Both the position numbers and the translations under genes were made by a program. From contig NZ_BANT01000014.1 in the NCBI RefSeq assembly GCF_000333015.1, forward strand, positions 1 to 64,000: 64,000 nt of DNA, read 5' to 3'. This document shows positions 1 to 6,913 of this stretch, one piece after another (the stretch's first letter is position 1; every line of letters starts with the position of its first letter). Source of the stretch: Gordonia hirsuta DSM 44140 = NBRC 16056 (GTDB lineage: Bacteria; Actinomycetota; Actinomycetes; Mycobacteriales; Mycobacteriaceae). The notes below the pieces were generated by a model. The model did no database searches, was not told the origin of the DNA, and saw only the letters and a program-made list of their open reading frames with translations.

Positions 1-31
1 GTGCCCGCCACCGGTTGACGGTGGCGGGCAC
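1..31. terminator. perfect 12-bp hairpin, probable terminator
   Basis: Arms at 1-12 and 20-31 are exact reverse complements around a 7-base loop. It lies 32 bases beyond the stop codon of the Clp N-domain gene and so is placed to end that transcript. It could equally serve a gene left of the window. A T-tract cannot be judged because the window ends. Confidence 0.75.
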
Positions 32-62
32 TCGAGGTTTGCGGTCTTCGTCGATCGCCGGA

Positions 63-935
63 TCAGGCGGTGGCCGGTGCCTCGGGCAAGGCTGCCAGCA
101 CCGCGTTCCGCAGGGCATCGGCGGTGGTCGCCGATTCGATCAGTGCGGTCGAGGCCGGGTCACCCACGTCGAGGATCCCCAGTAGCAGGTACTCGGGCCG
201 GATCGACTGGTCACCGCGTTCGCGGGCGAGTTCCATCGCCGCACGCACGGCTTCGCGGGTCGACGACCCCATCCGGGCACGGGCACCCCGGCCGCGCGGT
301 CCGCGCCGGCCGCGACCGCCCTCCCAGGGGCCGCCACCGTCCGGACCGGCACCGTCCGGACCGGCACCCGGCCCCCCGGGGCCGAAGCCTTCCGGACCGA
401 AGCCTTCGGGACCGAAGCCACCGCGTCCGCGGCCACGACCGCGGCCGTGACCCCGTCGGCGCCGGTGCCGCTGACCGTGGTCGCCGTCGTGCTCCGGACC
501 GCAGACCGGCTCATGATCGCGGTGATGCCCCCGCCCCCGCCCCCGTCCGCGGCCCCGACCACGCTCGGGCCGTTCGCCCCAGTCGTCGGCCAGGTCCTCA
601 GCGAAGTGGTCGTTGACGGCTGAGCGCACCCTGTCCAGGTCGATACCGATGGCGGCCAGTGCCGCGCGGTCGGCCTCGTACCGGTCGGCGGCGGTGGCCT
701 CGTCGGCATCGTCGACGCTGTCGCCGTGTTCGGCGTGGAAGGCCCGCACACTCTCCCGTGCCCCTTCCAAGGTCAGGCCCTGCTCACCAAACAACGCGAA
801 CAGCGGACTGCGCGCATTACCGAGTATGCCGAGGATCAGGTGGTCGTTGCCCAAACCCCGATGTCCGAGGTCGTCAGCTTCCTGCGTCGCGAACATCATC
901 ACGACGCGGTCGTCTGCATTGAAACGGTCAAACAT
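63..935 (-). CDS. duplicated Clp N-domain protein with Arg/Gly-rich linker (ClpC2-like)
   Basis: 290-residue protein with two Clp repeat (ClpC N-domain) halves, residues about 1-112 and 222-285, and no AAA+ module, so it cannot be an unfoldase. They are joined by a linker (about 121-218) very rich in Arg, Gly and His, with GRGRGR runs and GFGPE repeats. ATG at 935 is chosen for its upstream GAAAGGA ribosome site and because the domain starts there (MFDRF). It overlaps the stop of the upstream HTH gene by 8 bp (ATGTTTGA), so translation is probably coupled. Known: mycobacterial ClpC2 carries an N-terminal HTH plus ClpC-type N-domains and can bind ClpC1 N-domain ligands (from memory). Inferred: adaptor, decoy or stress sensor for ClpC1. 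The linker is unusual. Confidence 0.85.
   Translation of the reverse strand: MFDRFNADDRVVMMFATQEADDLGHRGLGNDHLILGILGNARSPLFALFGEQGLTLEGARESVRAFHAEHGDSVDDADEATAADRYEADRAALAAIGIDLDRVRSAVNDHFAEDLADDWGERPERGRGRGRGRGRGHHRDHEPVCGPEHDGDHGQRHRRRRGHGRGRGRGRGGFGPEGFGPEGFGPGGPGAGPDGAGPDGGGPWEGGRGRRGPRGRGARARMGSSTREAVRAAMELARERGDQSIRPEYLLLGILDVGDPASTALIESATTADALRNAVLAALPEAPATA
344..428. repeat. 15-bp tandem repeats coding the linker
   Basis: Two copies of a 15-bp unit (ACCGTCCGGACCGGC-like) are followed by three copies of GAAGCCTTCCGGACC-like units at 384-398, 399-413 and 414-428, the last diverged. They encode the GPD and GFGPE repeats of the linker. Being in frame, they allow length variation without loss of the second Clp repeat. 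Confidence 0.75.
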
Positions 936-1260
936 GATTGCCGTCCTTTCCGGCCTCGTCGGCCGAATCGGTTCCGCGTGCCGCCGCACCCTTGTCTGGG
1001 CGGGCGCCCTCGCGGAACGAGTGCTTCTGATGCACGGCCTGCCGGCTGACCTGAAGGACCTCGGCGATCGCCTGCCAGCTCCACCCGTGGGAGCGGGCGT
1101 TGGCGACCTGAACGTCCTCCAGACGGTCGGCAAGAGTCCTCAATGCCCGAATCGCGGCCAGCCCCACTCCGGGGTCGCTGCTGGCGGCGGCTCCTGCGAC
1201 CTGATCGCCACCGGAAGCTCCGTCGTTCGGATCGATTGTCGGTTTCCCTTCGTCGTGCAT
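928..1260 (-). CDS. HTH regulator, partner of Clp N-domain protein
   Basis: 110-residue protein. Residues about 34-82 hold a helical segment followed by a helix-turn-helix (W-S-W-Q-A-I-A-E-V-L-Q-V-S-R-Q-A-V, about 60-76). This resembles the N-terminal DNA-binding segment of mycobacterial ClpC2 (pattern S-W-x-x-I-G-x-x-x-G-V-T-K-Q-A-A, from memory). The tail is charged and probably disordered. The gene starts at ATG 1260, six bases after a TAACCT -10 element, so the message is probably leaderless. Two 18-bp palindromes cover its -35 and -10, making autorepression the simplest hypothesis. Its end overlaps the start of the Clp N-domain gene by 8 bp. Confidence 0.8.
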   Translation of the reverse strand: MHDEGKPTIDPNDGASGGDQVAGAAASSDPGVGLAAIRALRTLADRLEDVQVANARSHGWSWQAIAEVLQVSRQAVHQKHSFREGARPDKGAAARGTDSADEAGKDGNHV

Positions 1261-1262
1261 GA

Positions 1263-1308
1263 TGTCAGGTTATCTTGACACTTACCGTGTTGTCAACATT
1301 TATTGACA
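1263..1308. promoter_or_regulatory. tandem 18-bp palindromic operators over the HTH promoter
   Basis: Two inverted repeats share one architecture: TGTCAG-N6-TTGACA at 1263-1280 and TGTCAA-N6-TTGACA at 1291-1308, with centres 28 bp apart. On the minus strand the inner arm of the second forms a consensus -35 (TTGACA, 1296-1291). An 18-base spacer leads to TAACCT (1272-1267), inside the first palindrome. A dimer on each site would block both promoter elements. The sites may also affect the rightward gene starting at 1401. Confidence 0.75.
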
Positions 1309-1400: not shown

Positions 1401-2399
1401 ATGCGCTTCAACCCCCCGCCGAACTGGCCACCCGTGCCGCCGGGCTGGACGCCACCCTCGGGATGGAAGCCCGACCCCGCGTGGGGACCGCCGCCGCACG
1501 GCTGGCCGCTCTGGCTGCCCGAAACGCCCGCATCGCAGTCGGGTCCGACCGACCACGCAGCGGCTGGCGAGAAGAAGACCGGCACCGCGCCGCACCCCCA
1601 CCCGGATCCGGCAACGCCGGCGAAGAAGCCCAAGCGAGTCGGCCGCTGGGGGAAGGCCACTCGGAAGGCCGTCGAGAACCCCCTGTGGACCACCCTCGGC
1701 GCCCTCGTGGGCATCGTCGGCCTGGTGGTCTCGGTGATCCAGATCTACCAGGCGATGCAGACGCCGCCGGTCGACCTCGAGGTCGCCTCCATCACCCTCG
1801 ACGGCGAGCAGACGATCCCGGCCCACCTCCTCGGCGGCCGGACTGCCGGGAACGGTTCGGTCGGAGCGACACCGATCGATCTGACCCTGCAGAACAAGGG
1901 GGGCGAACCGTCGCTCATCACCCGGATCGACGCGACCGTTGTCTTCTTCGAACAGCTGCGGGACTGCACGGCCGCCCCGGCGACCCCCGCACGCGCCGCC
2001 GGCCAGTACCAGCTGAAGATCCCGATGACGGACACCGCACCGTCGTCCAAAACCTTCTCGAACGAGATCCGCTTCGAGGTGAAACCCGATGCGGCCGACC
2101 GCATGGTCCTGACCATCGGACCGGAACAGCAACCCGCCTTCGCCATCCAGCCGATGGTGATGTCGGTGAAACTGGCTCTGATCCACGACCACAACCAGAC
2201 CAAGGAGATCGGCACCGTCTCCCTGGTCACGACCGTCGCCGCCACCAACGCCCAGATCGGCGGAACCCCGGCGACCGCGGCCGGCCGCCAGTGCGCCAAG
2301 GAGAACCTGGAGCAGCTAGACACCATGTTCGCGATCCAGGCCACCCGCTCCCGGGTGCTCGACGAGTTACGCTCGGCCTACCAGGCCGCAGCAGGCTGA
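1401..2399 (+). CDS. Pro/Trp-rich single-pass membrane protein, paralogue 1
   Basis: 332 residues. The first about 45 residues repeat P-P-x-W and G-W-x-P-x motifs (start MRFNPPPNWPP), a Pro/Trp-rich cytoplasmic tail common in actinobacterial membrane proteins. A Lys/Arg-rich stretch, one membrane helix (around GALVGIVGLVVSVIQIY) and an exported domain of about 200 residues follow. Two cysteines (LRDC and GRQC) could form a disulfide. ATG 1401 is chosen because the next gene begins with the same peptide; a CGGAG ribosome site lies 8 bases upstream. Function unknown. The outer domain looks beta-rich, but no family is recognised. Confidence 0.8.
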   Translation: MRFNPPPNWPPVPPGWTPPSGWKPDPAWGPPPHGWPLWLPETPASQSGPTDHAAAGEKKTGTAPHPHPDPATPAKKPKRVGRWGKATRKAVENPLWTTLGALVGIVGLVVSVIQIYQAMQTPPVDLEVASITLDGEQTIPAHLLGGRTAGNGSVGATPIDLTLQNKGGEPSLITRIDATVVFFEQLRDCTAAPATPARAAGQYQLKIPMTDTAPSSKTFSNEIRFEVKPDAADRMVLTIGPEQQPAFAIQPMVMSVKLALIHDHNQTKEIGTVSLVTTVAATNAQIGGTPATAAGRQCAKENLEQLDTMFAIQATRSRVLDELRSAYQAAAG

Positions 2400-2428: not shown

Positions 2429-3400
2429 ATGCGTTTCAACCCGCCGCCCAACTGGCCACCGCCCCCGGAACCGGGATGGCAGCCACCACCCGGCTGGCGA
2501 CCCGATCCCCGCTGGGGTCCCCCGCCGACCGGCTGGCCACTGTGGATGCACGACGTTCCCGCACCCCAGCAAACACCGGCCTCGCCGCAGCCACCTCATG
2601 TACCCCGGCCGGAAGCGCGAGCACGACTCACCGGTGCACTCACAAGCCGCGCGTGGATCTCCGTCGCCGCCGTGGTGAGCGCGCTGTCCCTGGTCGTGGC
2701 CAGCTGGGTCTACTTCGGGGGCGGACCGGGCACGACGAACGGCGGTCTCGAAGTCGCCGCCGTTTCTATGGACTCGGTCGTCGAAATTCCTGCGACGACC
2801 CGCAGCACTGCCACACGCGGGGAAAACGCACCGATCAGCACTCCGCAGAAGACCGTGCCGGTGGACATCACCCTGAAGAACACCTGCTCGATGCCCATCA
2901 TCGTCAAAGAGATCCGCGGGGAGGTGTTGCACTTCGCGGAGCTTCCCGATTGCGGACGCTTCGGTGGCGGCCCCGCGGTACTCTCCGCCTCGTTCGGTCT
3001 CGTCATCCCCACGACTTTCCGGGACGACGCAAGAAAGCCGACCACCACGCAGATCGCCATGCCCGCCGACTTCGTCGTCGAACCGGGGTCCGTAGGCCGG
3101 ATGGAAGTGACCTTCGGCCCAGAGACTCAGAACTCTTCGTTCGTCAAACCGAACATCATGGCTGTGAAGATCAGCCTCGTCCCCGATGTCGGCGAGCCGT
3201 TGCTGATCGGTACCGCCGGCGGGGTCAGCCAGGTCCAAGATGTCGTGCACATGGCCGAGCACGAGTCCTACTTCGCCCGCCCCCAACCGGCGGACTGCAA
3301 CCGGGCGAATCTTCGCGAGGTACTCAAAGTCACCCGGTCGTCCGATGTCCGATCCCCCTATCTGACCCAGATGGAGAAGATCTACGCCAAATACGCCTGA
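2429..3400 (+). CDS. Pro/Trp-rich single-pass membrane protein, paralogue 2
   Basis: 323 residues, tandem paralogue of the preceding gene, 29 bases downstream with an AGGACG ribosome site. It shares the N-terminal Pro/Trp block (MRFNPPPNWPPPPEPGW), a single membrane helix (around SVAAVVSALSLVVASWVYF) and the outer-domain landmarks L-E-V-A-x-x-S/T-x-D, V-D-I-T-L-K-N and the late Cys (ADCN against GRQC). It has one extra Cys (KNTC). The paralogues have diverged strongly outside the N-terminus. Both are probably transcribed together. No known family is recognised; a role at the cell surface is inferred from topology only. Confidence 0.8.
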   Translation: MRFNPPPNWPPPPEPGWQPPPGWRPDPRWGPPPTGWPLWMHDVPAPQQTPASPQPPHVPRPEARARLTGALTSRAWISVAAVVSALSLVVASWVYFGGGPGTTNGGLEVAAVSMDSVVEIPATTRSTATRGENAPISTPQKTVPVDITLKNTCSMPIIVKEIRGEVLHFAELPDCGRFGGGPAVLSASFGLVIPTTFRDDARKPTTTQIAMPADFVVEPGSVGRMEVTFGPETQNSSFVKPNIMAVKISLVPDVGEPLLIGTAGGVSQVQDVVHMAEHESYFARPQPADCNRANLREVLKVTRSSDVRSPYLTQMEKIYAKYA

Positions 3401-3495: not shown

Positions 3496-6039
3496 CTACT
3501 CCGACAGGATGGACTCGGTGATGTTCATCCGCGACGCCCGCACCGCCGGCACCAGCGCACCGAACAGACACAGCGCGGCCGCGGCCACCACATATCCGGT
3601 CGACGACCACAGCGGCCGGTAGAGGATGTCGATCGACGTCGTCTCGGTGAGGATCTTGTCGGCCAGATAGTGCAGCCCGCTGCCCATCACGATGCCGACC
3701 ACCGCACCGACGATCGCCACCGACCCGGCCTCAGCGAGCACCATCCGGACGACGAACCGCCGCGAGGCGCCCATCGCCCGCAGTACCCCGAGTTCGCGTC
3801 GGCGCTCGAGCACCGACAGCAGCAACGTATTGAGCAACGCGATCGCGGCGGCGGCAGCCACGATCCACTGGATCGCAACGGTGAAGGCGCCCGCCTGCTC
3901 GACGGTGCTCTGCGTCGCCTGCAGCGCCGCGTTGCCGGTGTAGACGTAGACCGGGCGGTTGCCCGCGCCCGGGTACTCTGCAGCGATCTCGGCCAGGTCG
4001 TGCTGGACCTGAGCCAGATCGGCTCCGGGCGCGGTGAAGATCTGCAGGTAGGTCTGCCCCGGCCGCTTGAACCACTCCGCCATCAGGTCCGCCGAGATCG
4101 CGCCGGTCCCCGAATCGATGGTCACGTAGTTCACCGTGTCGCGCACCACGAGCTCGTGATAGCCGGTCGGCGTGGCCAGTCGCAGGGTGTCGCCGGTTCG
4201 CACACCCAGCGTCCGCGCCAGAACCCGCGACAACAGGATCCCGTCTCCGTCGAGCGTCTGGGCCGCCGCCTCCGGGGTCGCCTTCTTCAGGAACGGTGCC
4301 GCCGCGCCCGGTTCCAGACCCTGCAGCATCGCTCGCGCATCACCGATGTTGACAGCGGCCCACTGGCCCCCGGCGATCCGCTCGACACCGGGAACCTCGG
4401 CCGCGCGTTCGGCGATCTCGGGGTTCAGCACCGGCCCGACAGGAATATCGTCTTCGGCGCGGGCGGAGACGTAGATGTCCGGGTCGCTGAGCCCGTCGAG
4501 AGAGTTGGCGATCGAGTCGACCATATTGCTCAACGCTCCGGAGGTGCCGATGCCGACGGCGATGGCCACCCCGACGGTCATCACCGTGGCCCAGACCCGG
4601 CGCGGAGCGCGGTCGCTGTTGATCGCGGCCAGCCGGCCCGGACCACCGAACCGCCGGGACACCACGACCACCGCGCGCACCAGCGCCACCGTGATGCCGA
4701 AACACACCAGGATCGCGCCGATCGAGTAGACGGCCCCCGCCAGCAACGCCGGGCGGCCCTCGACGGTGCCGACCATGACGACCGCGCCGATCACCAGCGC
4801 CACACCCGCGATGCCGGTCAGCCACAGCAGCATCCGCTGCGGCGGCTGTGCGTCGGAGGCCTCCCCCGGCACCATGGCCTCGACGGGTGCCACCGCGAAG
4901 ACCGACCGTGCCGCCAAAGCCGTCGCCGCCACACAGGCCAGTACGCACGCGATCACCGCCAGCGGAGCGGCATAGCCGGGTAGATGGTAGGAGACCTCCA
5001 GGGCGGTCGAGCCGACGGTGGACGGCAGTCGTCCCACCGCCCAGCGGCCGGCGACGATCCCCACCGGAACGCCGATCAGACCACCGACGAGACCGAAGAT
5101 CGTGGCTTCGGCGAGCAGATCGGTCACCAGGTGCCGGCGCCGGGCACCCAGCGCCCGGATCATCGCCAGCGACTGGCGGCGCGAGGCGACCGCCATGTTC
5201 ATCGTGTTGAACACCAGGAACGCGGCGATCACCAACGAGACCATCGAGACCAGGAGCGTCGAGTCGCGGGTCACCGCGCTGGCCACCTCGGATTGGCGCA
5301 CGCGGAAATCCGGGTCCACGACGCTCGCCCGGCCGTCGACCACTTGATCGACCTGCCGGCGCAGTTCGGCGTCGGAGACCTGCCCGTTGGGCACGATCAT
5401 GATCGAATCGACGGCGCGGCCGTCGGGCCCGTCCAGCCCGGCCAGTTCTTGCGCCAGCGTCAGATACGCGAAGATGAACCGTCCCCCGTTGAGGACGTCG
5501 GTGGCCGGGTCGTCGATCACCTCGAGCACCTGGACCTGGCGGCCGGCCACGTCGACGGTCTGCCCCTTGGTCAATCCGGTGCCCGCTCCGGCGAAGATGC
5601 CGTCGCGCAGCCGCTCCATATCGATCGGCTGATCGGCGCCGGCCGCCGCCGACCGCAGTTGCGGCGACAACGCCCCGACACGTGCATCCGAGCCCAGCAG
5701 GGTGGTCTGCGTCCCGTCGAGCAGGACCACGCCGCGCACCAGCGGCACGACCGCCTTGGCGCCGGTGACGTCGCTGCGGAGCTGGCCGATCAGGTCTGCC
5801 TCGACCCCGGTGTCGGCGATCGCGGCCACTTCCAAGGTGGCGTCGCCGGAGATGGCGGCATTGAATTTGCGGACCGTCTCAGTCATCGAGCCGTACGCAC
5901 CCAGGACCGCGATCAGCAGCCCGGAGGCGACGATCACCACGATCAGCGAGGTGATCACGCGCAGGCGATGGCTCGCCAGTTCACGCAGGTTCAGGATCCG
6001 TACGCGGGTCAGACCCGCGCCGAGGGCACCCAGATTCAC
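3496..6039 (-). CDS. FtsX-type ABC transporter permease (MacB/LolC-like)
   Basis: About 847 residues with two FtsX repeats. There is an N-terminal membrane helix, a large outer domain, a first membrane cluster ending in ARSVFAVAPVEAM, a central helix bundle, a second outer domain, and a C-terminal FtsX cluster (LNTLLLSVLERRRELGVLRAMGASRR). R-A-M-G-A-S-R-R and the equivalent R-A-L-G-A-R-R-R are coupling-helix signatures of this family. I prefer GTG 6039, preceded by GAAGGCGG and 10 bases after the ATPase stop. ATG 6075 would overlap the ATPase gene by 26 bp and lacks a good ribosome site. It forms an exporter with the adjacent ATPase; substrate unknown (lipid, lipoprotein or peptide are family precedents). 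Confidence 0.9.
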   Translation of the reverse strand: MNLGALGAGLTRVRILNLRELASHRLRVITSLIVVIVASGLLIAVLGAYGSMTETVRKFNAAISGDATLEVAAIADTGVEADLIGQLRSDVTGAKAVVPLVRGVVLLDGTQTTLLGSDARVGALSPQLRSAAAGADQPIDMERLRDGIFAGAGTGLTKGQTVDVAGRQVQVLEVIDDPATDVLNGGRFIFAYLTLAQELAGLDGPDGRAVDSIMIVPNGQVSDAELRRQVDQVVDGRASVVDPDFRVRQSEVASAVTRDSTLLVSMVSLVIAAFLVFNTMNMAVASRRQSLAMIRALGARRRHLVTDLLAEATIFGLVGGLIGVPVGIVAGRWAVGRLPSTVGSTALEVSYHLPGYAAPLAVIACVLACVAATALAARSVFAVAPVEAMVPGEASDAQPPQRMLLWLTGIAGVALVIGAVVMVGTVEGRPALLAGAVYSIGAILVCFGITVALVRAVVVVSRRFGGPGRLAAINSDRAPRRVWATVMTVGVAIAVGIGTSGALSNMVDSIANSLDGLSDPDIYVSARAEDDIPVGPVLNPEIAERAAEVPGVERIAGGQWAAVNIGDARAMLQGLEPGAAAPFLKKATPEAAAQTLDGDGILLSRVLARTLGVRTGDTLRLATPTGYHELVVRDTVNYVTIDSGTGAISADLMAEWFKRPGQTYLQIFTAPGADLAQVQHDLAEIAAEYPGAGNRPVYVYTGNAALQATQSTVEQAGAFTVAIQWIVAAAAAIALLNTLLLSVLERRRELGVLRAMGASRRFVVRMVLAEAGSVAIVGAVVGIVMGSGLHYLADKILTETTSIDILYRPLWSSTGYVVAAAALCLFGALVPAVRASRMNITESILSE

Positions 6040-6049
6040 CGGCCCGCCT

Positions 6050-6913
6050 TCACTGCGCCCGATGGCGGCCGCCATCGCCGACCCGCGGTATCGGCCCGGT
6101 CATCCAGAGCGCTCCGGGCACCGGGCGAGCGGAGGGCCGGCCCGGGATGGGCGGGGGTCCGGGGATCTCCGGCCGCGACGGCGGTGCCTGTCCTGCGGTC
6201 GGCGCCTGCGGTTCTCGGCCGGCCGCAGCGACGTTGCCCGGGTCGTGAATCTTGCCGTCTCGCACCGTGATCACCCGGTCGCTGAAATCGGCGGCGTCAT
6301 CGGCGTGGGTCACCATCAGCACCAGCCGGTCGGGTTCGTCGTGGGCCACCTCGGCCAGCAGCGCCAGCACGTCGGCGCCGGTCTTGGAGTCCAGGTTGCC
6401 GGTGGGTTCATCGGCCAGCAGGATCTTCGGATCCATGATCAGGCTGCGGGCGATCGCCACCCGCTGCATCTGCCCGCCGGACAGTTCGGAGGGCCGGTGG
6501 TCGATCCGGTTGCCCAGCCCGACCCGCTCCATCAGCTCCACCGCGCGCGGTTTGGCCGAGCCCAGCGACTTGGAGTCCAGCAGCATCGGCAGTGCGACGT
6601 TCTCCCACGCCGACAGCGTCGGCACCAGGTTGAAGAACTGGAAGATGAAACCGACCCGGTGGCGCCGGAACGAGGAGGCCGCATCGTCGTCGAGAGTGCC
6701 CAGATCGACACCGTCGACGGTGATCGTGCCGGACGTCGGAGTGTCCAGGGCGCCCAGGATGTGCAGCAGCGTCGATTTACCGGCGCCGGAGGGACCGATC
6801 ACCGAGACGAACTGCCCGCCGTCGAGCGTCAGACTGGCGCCGTCGAGGGCGCGGACGCGTTCCTCTCCCATCCGGTATTCGCGGACCAGATCCCGGGCCT
6901 CCACCAGCGCCAT
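6050..6913 (-). CDS. ABC transporter ATP-binding protein (LolD/MacB type)
   Basis: 287 residues. Walker A GPSGAGKST is near residue 40, followed by the Q-loop (FQFFNLVPTLSAWENV), signature LSGGQMQR, Walker B ILLADEPTGNLDS and H-loop VTHADD. The E-P-T-G-N-L-D-S wording and short length mark the MacB/LolD/FtsE class that drives FtsX-type permeases, as its neighbour is. The last about 50 residues are Pro-rich and probably disordered, unlike the compact E. coli LolD. It follows the DUF4229 gene by 6 bp and precedes the permease, so all three likely form one transcript. Confidence 0.93.
   Translation of the reverse strand: MALVEARDLVREYRMGEERVRALDGASLTLDGGQFVSVIGPSGAGKSTLLHILGALDTPTSGTITVDGVDLGTLDDDAASSFRRHRVGFIFQFFNLVPTLSAWENVALPMLLDSKSLGSAKPRAVELMERVGLGNRIDHRPSELSGGQMQRVAIARSLIMDPKILLADEPTGNLDSKTGADVLALLAEVAHDEPDRLVLMVTHADDAADFSDRVITVRDGKIHDPGNVAAAGREPQAPTAGQAPPSRPEIPGPPPIPGRPSARPVPGALWMTGPIPRVGDGGRHRAQ

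Follow-up and report, generated by a model that had tools for sequence, protein, structure and literature searches.

A widespread two-gene operon of actinomycetes pairing a ClpC2-related helix-turn-helix protein, a candidate autorepressor, with a free-standing ClpC1-like Clp_N protein

The DNA analyzed here (the window) comprises the first 64 kb of one contig of the 3.49-Mb genome of Gordonia hirsuta DSM 44140 (NZ_BANT01000014.1, positions 1 to 64,000). Near its beginning lie two adjoining genes that are the subject of this study, one for a small helix-turn-helix (HTH) protein and one for a protein with two Clp_N repeats (Table 1). A preliminary description, made from the letters alone, had reported a 110-residue HTH protein and a 290-residue double Clp_N protein that overlap by 8 bp in different frames, and we confirmed both the coordinates and the open reading frames (ORFs). 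The Clp_N gene starts at an internal ATG of a longer mechanical ORF (63-1133), and a Shine-Dalgarno-like sequence, AAAGGA, lies inside the HTH gene upstream of the overlap.

Table 1. Features of the HTH/Clp_N locus (window coordinates; parts of the Clp_N protein in residues).
Feature	Position	Strand	Remarks
HTH gene	928..1260	-	ATG start, 110 aa; autorepressor candidate
Clp_N partner gene	63..935	-	ATG start, 290 aa
8-bp overlap ATGTTTGA	928..935	-	couples the HTH and Clp_N genes, different frames
Distal operator (putative) TGTCAATAAATGTTGACA	1291..1308	-	18-bp palindrome; right half TTGACA (1291-1296) = -35 box
Proximal operator (putative) TGTCAAGATAACCTGACA	1263..1280	-	18-bp palindrome; centre TAACCT (1267-1272) = -10-like box (TAnnnT)
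Perfect hairpin	1..31		12-bp stem, 7-nt loop; behind the Clp_N stop codon
Clp_N protein, repeat 1	aa ~1-70		
Clp_N protein, connector	aa ~89-112		with IGIDL motif
Clp_N protein, linker	aa ~122-218		Gly/Arg-rich
Clp_N protein, repeat 2	aa ~223-285		

A Pfam scan placed the HTH protein in no family over its cut-off, the best match being HTH_23 (E 2e-4, 21.6 bits against a cut-off of 24.6). AlphaFold2 predicts helices at residues 13-25, 30-57, 62-69 and 73-85, with a predicted local distance difference test (pLDDT) score of ~88-95 over residues 21-80 and of ~54-65 in the C-terminal tail beyond residue 80. The preliminary description had assigned this protein the same type of HTH as the N-terminus of mycobacterial ClpC2, and profile comparison bears the assignment out: hhalign aligned the HTH family with ClpC2 N-termini at 96.7%, over 45 columns and with 36% identity, while a negative control against a Clp_N alignment gave 0.2%. 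The pattern S-W-x-x-I-x5-V-x-x-Q-A is common to both. Furthermore, D45 and R56 of the HTH protein align with D46 and R57, the dimer salt-bridge residues of ClpC2 (numbering mapped on the mycobacterial ClpC2 L258, in which the same two residues stand at these positions); R56 is invariant in 64 HTH sequences, and position 45 is Asp or Glu in the proteins read. A smaller HTH profile compared with PDB matched the antitoxin RelI (9sdc) at E 8e-5 and the ClpC2 N-terminus (8ADA) only at E 0.08, and Foldseek and VIA structure searches with the HTH model returned generic HTH matches only, without a ClpC2 row. By its sequence profile, the HTH protein of the pair is homologous to the N-terminus of ClpC2.

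In the partner protein, both Clp_N repeats exceeded the Pfam cut-off of 20.7 bits in a genome search (744-884, 22.5 bits; 87-239, 38.4 bits), and hmmscan of the 290-residue protein found Clp_N (PF02861) in two stretches at E 3e-16. In the AlphaFold2 model, two Clp_N halves predicted with confidence are accompanied by a helical connector and a linker of low confidence, and Foldseek matched the model to ClpC1 N-domains, best to 6cn8 (E 2.4e-5, target TM 0.77). The predicted structure is thus a ClpC-type N-domain fold, ClpC1-like in both repeats. The pocket phenylalanines of ClpC1 are mostly kept across the family, F2 in 70 of 75 partners and the F80-equivalent in 64 of 75. Departures from ClpC1 are the lack of an ATPase, an inserted connector of ~40 residues, the long Gly/Arg-rich linker of Gordonia and Williamsia, and, in the window protein, the loss of the F80-equivalent, which is Met. 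The window linker counts 97 residues (36 Gly and 22 Arg), and partner length is 236-326 residues in 20 Gordonia/Williamsia proteins against a median of 187 in 54 proteins from other genera. An IGIDL-type motif marks the connector in 72 of 75 pair partners; it occurs in none of 12 ClpC2 proteins and is absent from the one ClpC1 examined. Because the family-invariant residues of the partner sit in this connector, it is the best candidate for a contact with the HTH protein that would replace the covalent link. As a separate observation, Mycobacterium kyorinense encodes a stand-alone 235-residue protein (L260, G153:C161:55500-58500) composed of a ClpC1-type N-domain and a C-terminal part of unknown kind.

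The pair is not peculiar to this genome. Among 151 genomes of the family, the HTH protein search gave 103 genomes with a match at E <= 0.001, in 26 of 31 genera; 92 of these matches were strong (>=60 bits) and define the pair counts used here. We fetched 110 loci, namely all 92 strong ones and 18 of the weaker. Every one of the 92 strong loci has a Clp_N frame behind the HTH gene, on the same strand and in its own frame, which puts the pairing beyond chance and upholds the earlier claim of a Clp_N protein on a separate chain beside a DNA-binding partner. Two of the HTH genes (L129 in G024, L103 in G082) are kept beside a truncated or broken Clp_N gene. A Clp_N-partner profile run over the same genomes produced 90 matches of at least 144 bits, all of them in HTH-bearing genomes. 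Nearly full-length matches account for 86, and the remaining four (G074, G094, G012, G038) cover only 1-112 to 1-122 of 194 model positions, corresponding to the first repeat and connector. The next matches are partial, with 101 bits in G066, followed by ClpC1 at 88 bits; G066, in which the HTH and Clp_N matches, both partial, lie near each other, was left out of the counts. A Pfam Clp_N search across the family gave mainly ClpC1 among the matches listed and did not enter the counts either.

We also examined named loci, the best 80 of at least 565 confirmed relatives and hence a sample leaning towards close relatives of the window. The two-gene form is present in all 80, with the Clp_N gene after the HTH gene and fused in none. 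These loci come from Gordonia, Williamsia, Nocardia, Rhodococcus, Mycobacterium, Tomitella, Pseudonocardia, Kitasatospora, Actinomadura, Blastococcus, Flexivirga and others. In a broader sample, 296 genomes from the class, the HTH profile matched 201 at E <= 0.001 (77 of 114 genera), the weak share of which probably includes ClpC2 and RelI-like proteins. Five loci (L130, L131, L133, L135, L142) hold a second, distant HTH gene with a weak Clp_N match and without the tandem operator described below.

Directly upstream of the HTH gene, two tandem palindromes of the pattern TGTCAA-N6-TTGACA cover -35 and -10 boxes, which we assigned by consensus sequences. In the window the boxes are 18 nt apart, and the HTH start codon lies 2 nt behind the proximal palindrome. 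The core TGTCA-N8-TGACA was found twice in the window against 0.03 expected (1 of 100 shuffles reached two), and its only occurrences in the entire 3.49-Mb genome are these two; a backward control pattern occurred at one place, once per strand. With at most one mismatch, the N8 palindrome was present in 95 of the 110 fetched loci against 0.5 expected from shuffles, a total made up of 91 of the 92 strong pair loci and 4 of the 18 weaker HTH loci. Of the 92 pair loci of the family, 90 have tandem operators, and in all 92 the last palindrome stands 1-3 nt ahead of the HTH start; among the 80 named loci the corresponding numbers are 73 and 75, and 154 of 156 palindromes have N8 spacing. Across 72 loci with tandem operators, TAnnnT occupies the centre of the proximal operator in 64 and the -35/-10 spacer is 17-18 nt in 71. 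The distance from the -10 box to the start codon is 5-7 nt, so the transcript is predicted to be leaderless.

This placement is where a bound repressor would be expected to block RNA polymerase, and the operator anatomy lends strong support to repression of the operon by the HTH protein. A wider regulon is unsupported: in 31 Gordonia genomes the tandem arrangement was found in 30, and the remaining operator-like matches (53 strand-matches) were near the level of the backward control pattern (45). Nor was any operator found within the 1.5-kb flanks of the ClpC1 and ClpB loci scanned (L001-L004, L039-L067). Since the operators are confined to the HTH locus and other matches stay near background, the evidence points to the HTH protein as a dedicated autorepressor of its own operon. 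In another Gordonia genome (G008), a RelI-like HTH gene without Clp_N (L147, G008:C1:1652719-1652874, minus strand) is preceded by an 18-bp site, CGTCAACCATGGTTGACG, at a distance of ~30 nt from its assigned start; given this site, RelI-type proteins may read the same half-site as the HTH protein of the pair.

Substrates and adaptors of ClpC1, as well as cyclic-peptide antibiotics, dock on its N-domain. Against this background, the explanation that we favor, and hold to be somewhat better than an even bet, is that an HTH dimer represses its own leaderless operon and that the Clp_N product is a look-alike of the ClpC1 N-domain, serving as a decoy and as the proposed sensor that relieves repression on ligand. 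The dimer would bind both tandem 18-bp operators over the -35 and -10 boxes and shut off both genes. When a ligand of a ClpC1-type N-domain appears, the free-standing double Clp_N protein would let go of, or help release, the HTH protein; the operon would be induced and more decoy would be made. Antibiotics and damaged, for example arginine-phosphorylated, proteins had been suggested in the preliminary description as what the pair could sense. Such a circuit would amount to the ClpC2 feedback, borne by two proteins in place of one. For ClpC2 itself, self-repression lifted by cyclomarin and a sponge action are described in the part of the source available to us (PMC10030653). By analogy with ClpC2, the Clp_N protein of the pair would be the output of the circuit and probably also its sensor, and the same analogy suggests contact with the HTH protein, ligand sensing and decoy action.

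A second relative may bear on this proposal. ClpC3 of M. smegmatis (Hoi et al., 2023, as related in the accessible portions of PMC10864484, PMC10914731 and PMC10746685) is another small Clp protein, for which binding of cyclomarin and ecumicin and induction upon targeting of ClpC1 have been reported. It may itself be the Clp_N half of an HTH/Clp_N pair; in that case, its ligand binding and induction would directly support ligand relief of repression. PDB entry 8b9o was considered as a structure of ClpC3 and set aside because its title names the C-terminal domain of M. smegmatis ClpC2. Feedback on ClpC1 has, in the accessible parts of these papers, been described so far for ClpC2 (PMC10030653) and for ClpC3 in M. 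smegmatis (PMC10864484, PMC10914731, PMC10746685). Our literature search found no description of an HTH/Clp_N pair, although most subscription papers lay outside it and the pair may be in print elsewhere.

The same operon could also be induced by proteolysis, an explanation we regard as unlikely. The HTH autorepressor would then itself be a substrate of ClpC1-ClpP, and the Clp_N protein would be only a regulated decoy that never touches it. HTH gene, operators and decoy would look identical under this arrangement, and the low-confidence tail of the HTH model after residue 80 would suit it. Cyclomarin has, moreover, been described as potentiating ClpC1 (PMC10746685, in the part available), so that faster loss of the HTH protein would induce the decoy. 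However, no conserved degron-like tail is apparent by eye in the listed HTH proteins, and in ClpC2 a ligand on the Clp_N part alters DNA binding directly, according to the available text of PMC10030653.

The preliminary description had taken the pair for the unfused form of ClpC2. Much speaks for kinship. Like the pair, ClpC2 (the Rv2667 family) combines a homologous HTH/dimer domain with two Clp_N repeats behind it and lacks an ATPase. Its tandem palindromic operators with the half-site GTCAA likewise cover the -35 and -10 boxes and are immediately followed by the start codon; self-repression is likely in both. In the accessible part of PMC10030653, the ClpC2 operator is given as CGTCAAC-n5-GTTGACG (19 bp), 1-2 nt before the ORF. 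In addition, no fused ClpC2 was found in the window's genome, either by the Clp_N search or with a Gordonia ClpC2 (L263) as query. That query, run over the 151 genomes with a threshold of at least 145 bits and rows read by hand (G140 gave a partial match), detected fused ClpC2 in 88 genomes. It occurs together with the pair in 69 and without it in 19; 23 genomes, including that of the window, have the pair only, and 40 have neither.

This distribution is difficult to reconcile with a split ClpC2. Fused ClpC2 is a different gene, found alongside the pair in 69 of the 92 genomes that have the pair, Gordonia G008 included. The operators differ as well: of 43 palindromes at ClpC2 loci (27 scored of 30 fetched), 41 had N9 spacing, two N10 and none N8, and nine ClpC2 loci without a scored palindrome (6 of the 27 plus the 3 unscored) have 19 bp by eye, and six of these carry an altered half-site, GTTGTC. 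The half-site and promoter layout are therefore shared, with ClpC2 operators one base pair wider (19 bp against 18 bp). In a midpoint-rooted tree of 53 chosen rows (20 pair, 12 ClpC2, 16 ClpC1, 5 ClpB), built under long-branch warnings, separate groups are formed by the Clp_N partners (96/90), by ClpC2 (100/100) and, with weak support, by ClpC1 (87/42), the order among groups not being resolved. To these differences are added the extra IGIDL connector between the repeats and the separate reading frames, kept in all 92 family loci, two of which have a broken Clp_N gene, and in all 80 named loci. The HTH kinship proposed earlier thus stands, while orthology with the mycobacterial gene is largely refuted by co-occurrence, tree groups and operator spacing, and we consider it very improbable. 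Our comparison instead suggests a conserved and widespread two-gene operon in its own right, a cousin of ClpC2 and not a broken-up ClpC2.

The changed half-site of ClpC2 operators is confined here to one genus (g9), in which six loci (L273, L275, L276, L279, L280, L282) have one GTTGTC half-site for GTTGAC in both ClpC2 operators, with the spacing still 19 bp. All six of these genomes are without the pair.

The pair also bears on which domain reads DNA in ClpC2. In the portion of their paper available to us, Taylor et al. (2023, PMC10030653) assign DNA binding to the Clp_N part, through R185 and R189, and describe a crystal of the N-terminus spanning residues 4-72, with the dimer salt bridge D46/R57. 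On the numbering of L258, the recognition helix (SKQAAQKRF), which ClpC2 has in common with the pair, falls at 73-81, and a crystal ending at 72 would miss it. Both arginines are present in 12 of 12 ClpC2 proteins and in only 23 of 75 pair proteins, the window protein having Glu/Glu in their place, while the same half-site stands beside an HTH protein devoid of any Clp_N domain. That R185/R189 are mostly lost in the pair while the pair operator is conserved argues that the HTH, not the Clp_N domain, reads GTCAA in both the pair and ClpC2. Weighing against this, the R185A/R189A result in the electrophoretic mobility shift assay (PMC10030653, accessible part) is not explained by reading through the HTH, and the Clp_N part does contribute in ClpC2. 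The explanation we favor nevertheless predicts that ClpC2, too, reads DNA by its HTH, contrary to the published assignment, which is thereby called into question.

More tentatively, and with confidence short of even, we suggest that actinomycetes watch the ClpC1 docking domain through two insulated circuits, fused ClpC2 and the pair. In the pair, a free Clp_N sensor would act on the HTH dimer, probably via the invariant IGIDL connector; the HTH would read DNA in both circuits, from the same half-site set one base pair apart in spacing. The one-base difference between the operators would make a clean test case for the insulation of related repressors, and the pair naturally separates sensor from DNA reader. 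ClpC1 is the target of several peptide antibiotics, and a widespread two-protein guard of this kind would add an unmapped source of tolerance.

The likeness to RelI (Rv2664; PDB 9sdc) raises the question of a toxin-antitoxin-like pair, in which a RelI-related HTH protein would neutralize a Clp_N protein harmful when free. The smaller HTH profile indeed matched RelI better than the ClpC2 N-terminus, indicating a related HTH region, and ClpC2 is reported to be related to RelI, as are DUF3887 and DUF2812 (PMC13284704). A small operon with the DNA-binding gene first would fit, as would the two HTH genomes with a broken Clp_N gene and the fact that the HTH is missing for none of the 90 strong Clp_N matches. 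Unlike in RelS-RelI, the gene after the HTH is Clp_N in all 80 named loci (no RelS-directed search was made), and the operators lie directly before the HTH start. Against a toxin-antitoxin role, the second gene product, a homologue of the ClpC1 N-domain, is not known to be related to toxins, and the neighborhood recurs in part of the loci. We judge a toxin-antitoxin function to be a shade less probable still than a split ClpC2.

The preliminary description had left open a programmed frameshift restoring a ClpC2-like HTH-Clp_N fusion. The 8-bp overlap would fit, as would the Clp_N frame, which in the window's genome stays open ahead of its ATG. Such a frameshift is nevertheless scarcely credible. 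Over 160 distinct loci the two genes do not keep a constant phase relative to each other (67/51/42 for the three frames), and a conserved fusion is rejected. The gaps range between -23 and +131 nt, with a single broken locus at -142, and a Shine-Dalgarno-like 4-mer of its own precedes the Clp_N start in 141 of the 160 loci (a count without chance control).

As to the surroundings of the operon, the hairpin behind the Clp_N gene is a possible terminator; the contig begins at base 1, and a T-run would lie beyond view. Further operon members found no support in the 80 named loci, where the commonest neighbor family, a gene behind the pair in 31, runs on the opposite strand. From its sequence we take this gene to be menA-like. 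On the other side, two tandem proline-rich proteins with the shared start MRFNPPPNWPP... are encoded on the plus strand of the window (1401-2399 and 2429-3400), divergent from the HTH/Clp_N operon. Beyond them, on the minus strand, lies a permease gene with an ABC ATPase (3496-6913); the permease is presumably FtsX-like, and a related one lies upstream of the pair in 16 of the 80 named loci, every one of them from Gordonia or Williamsia.
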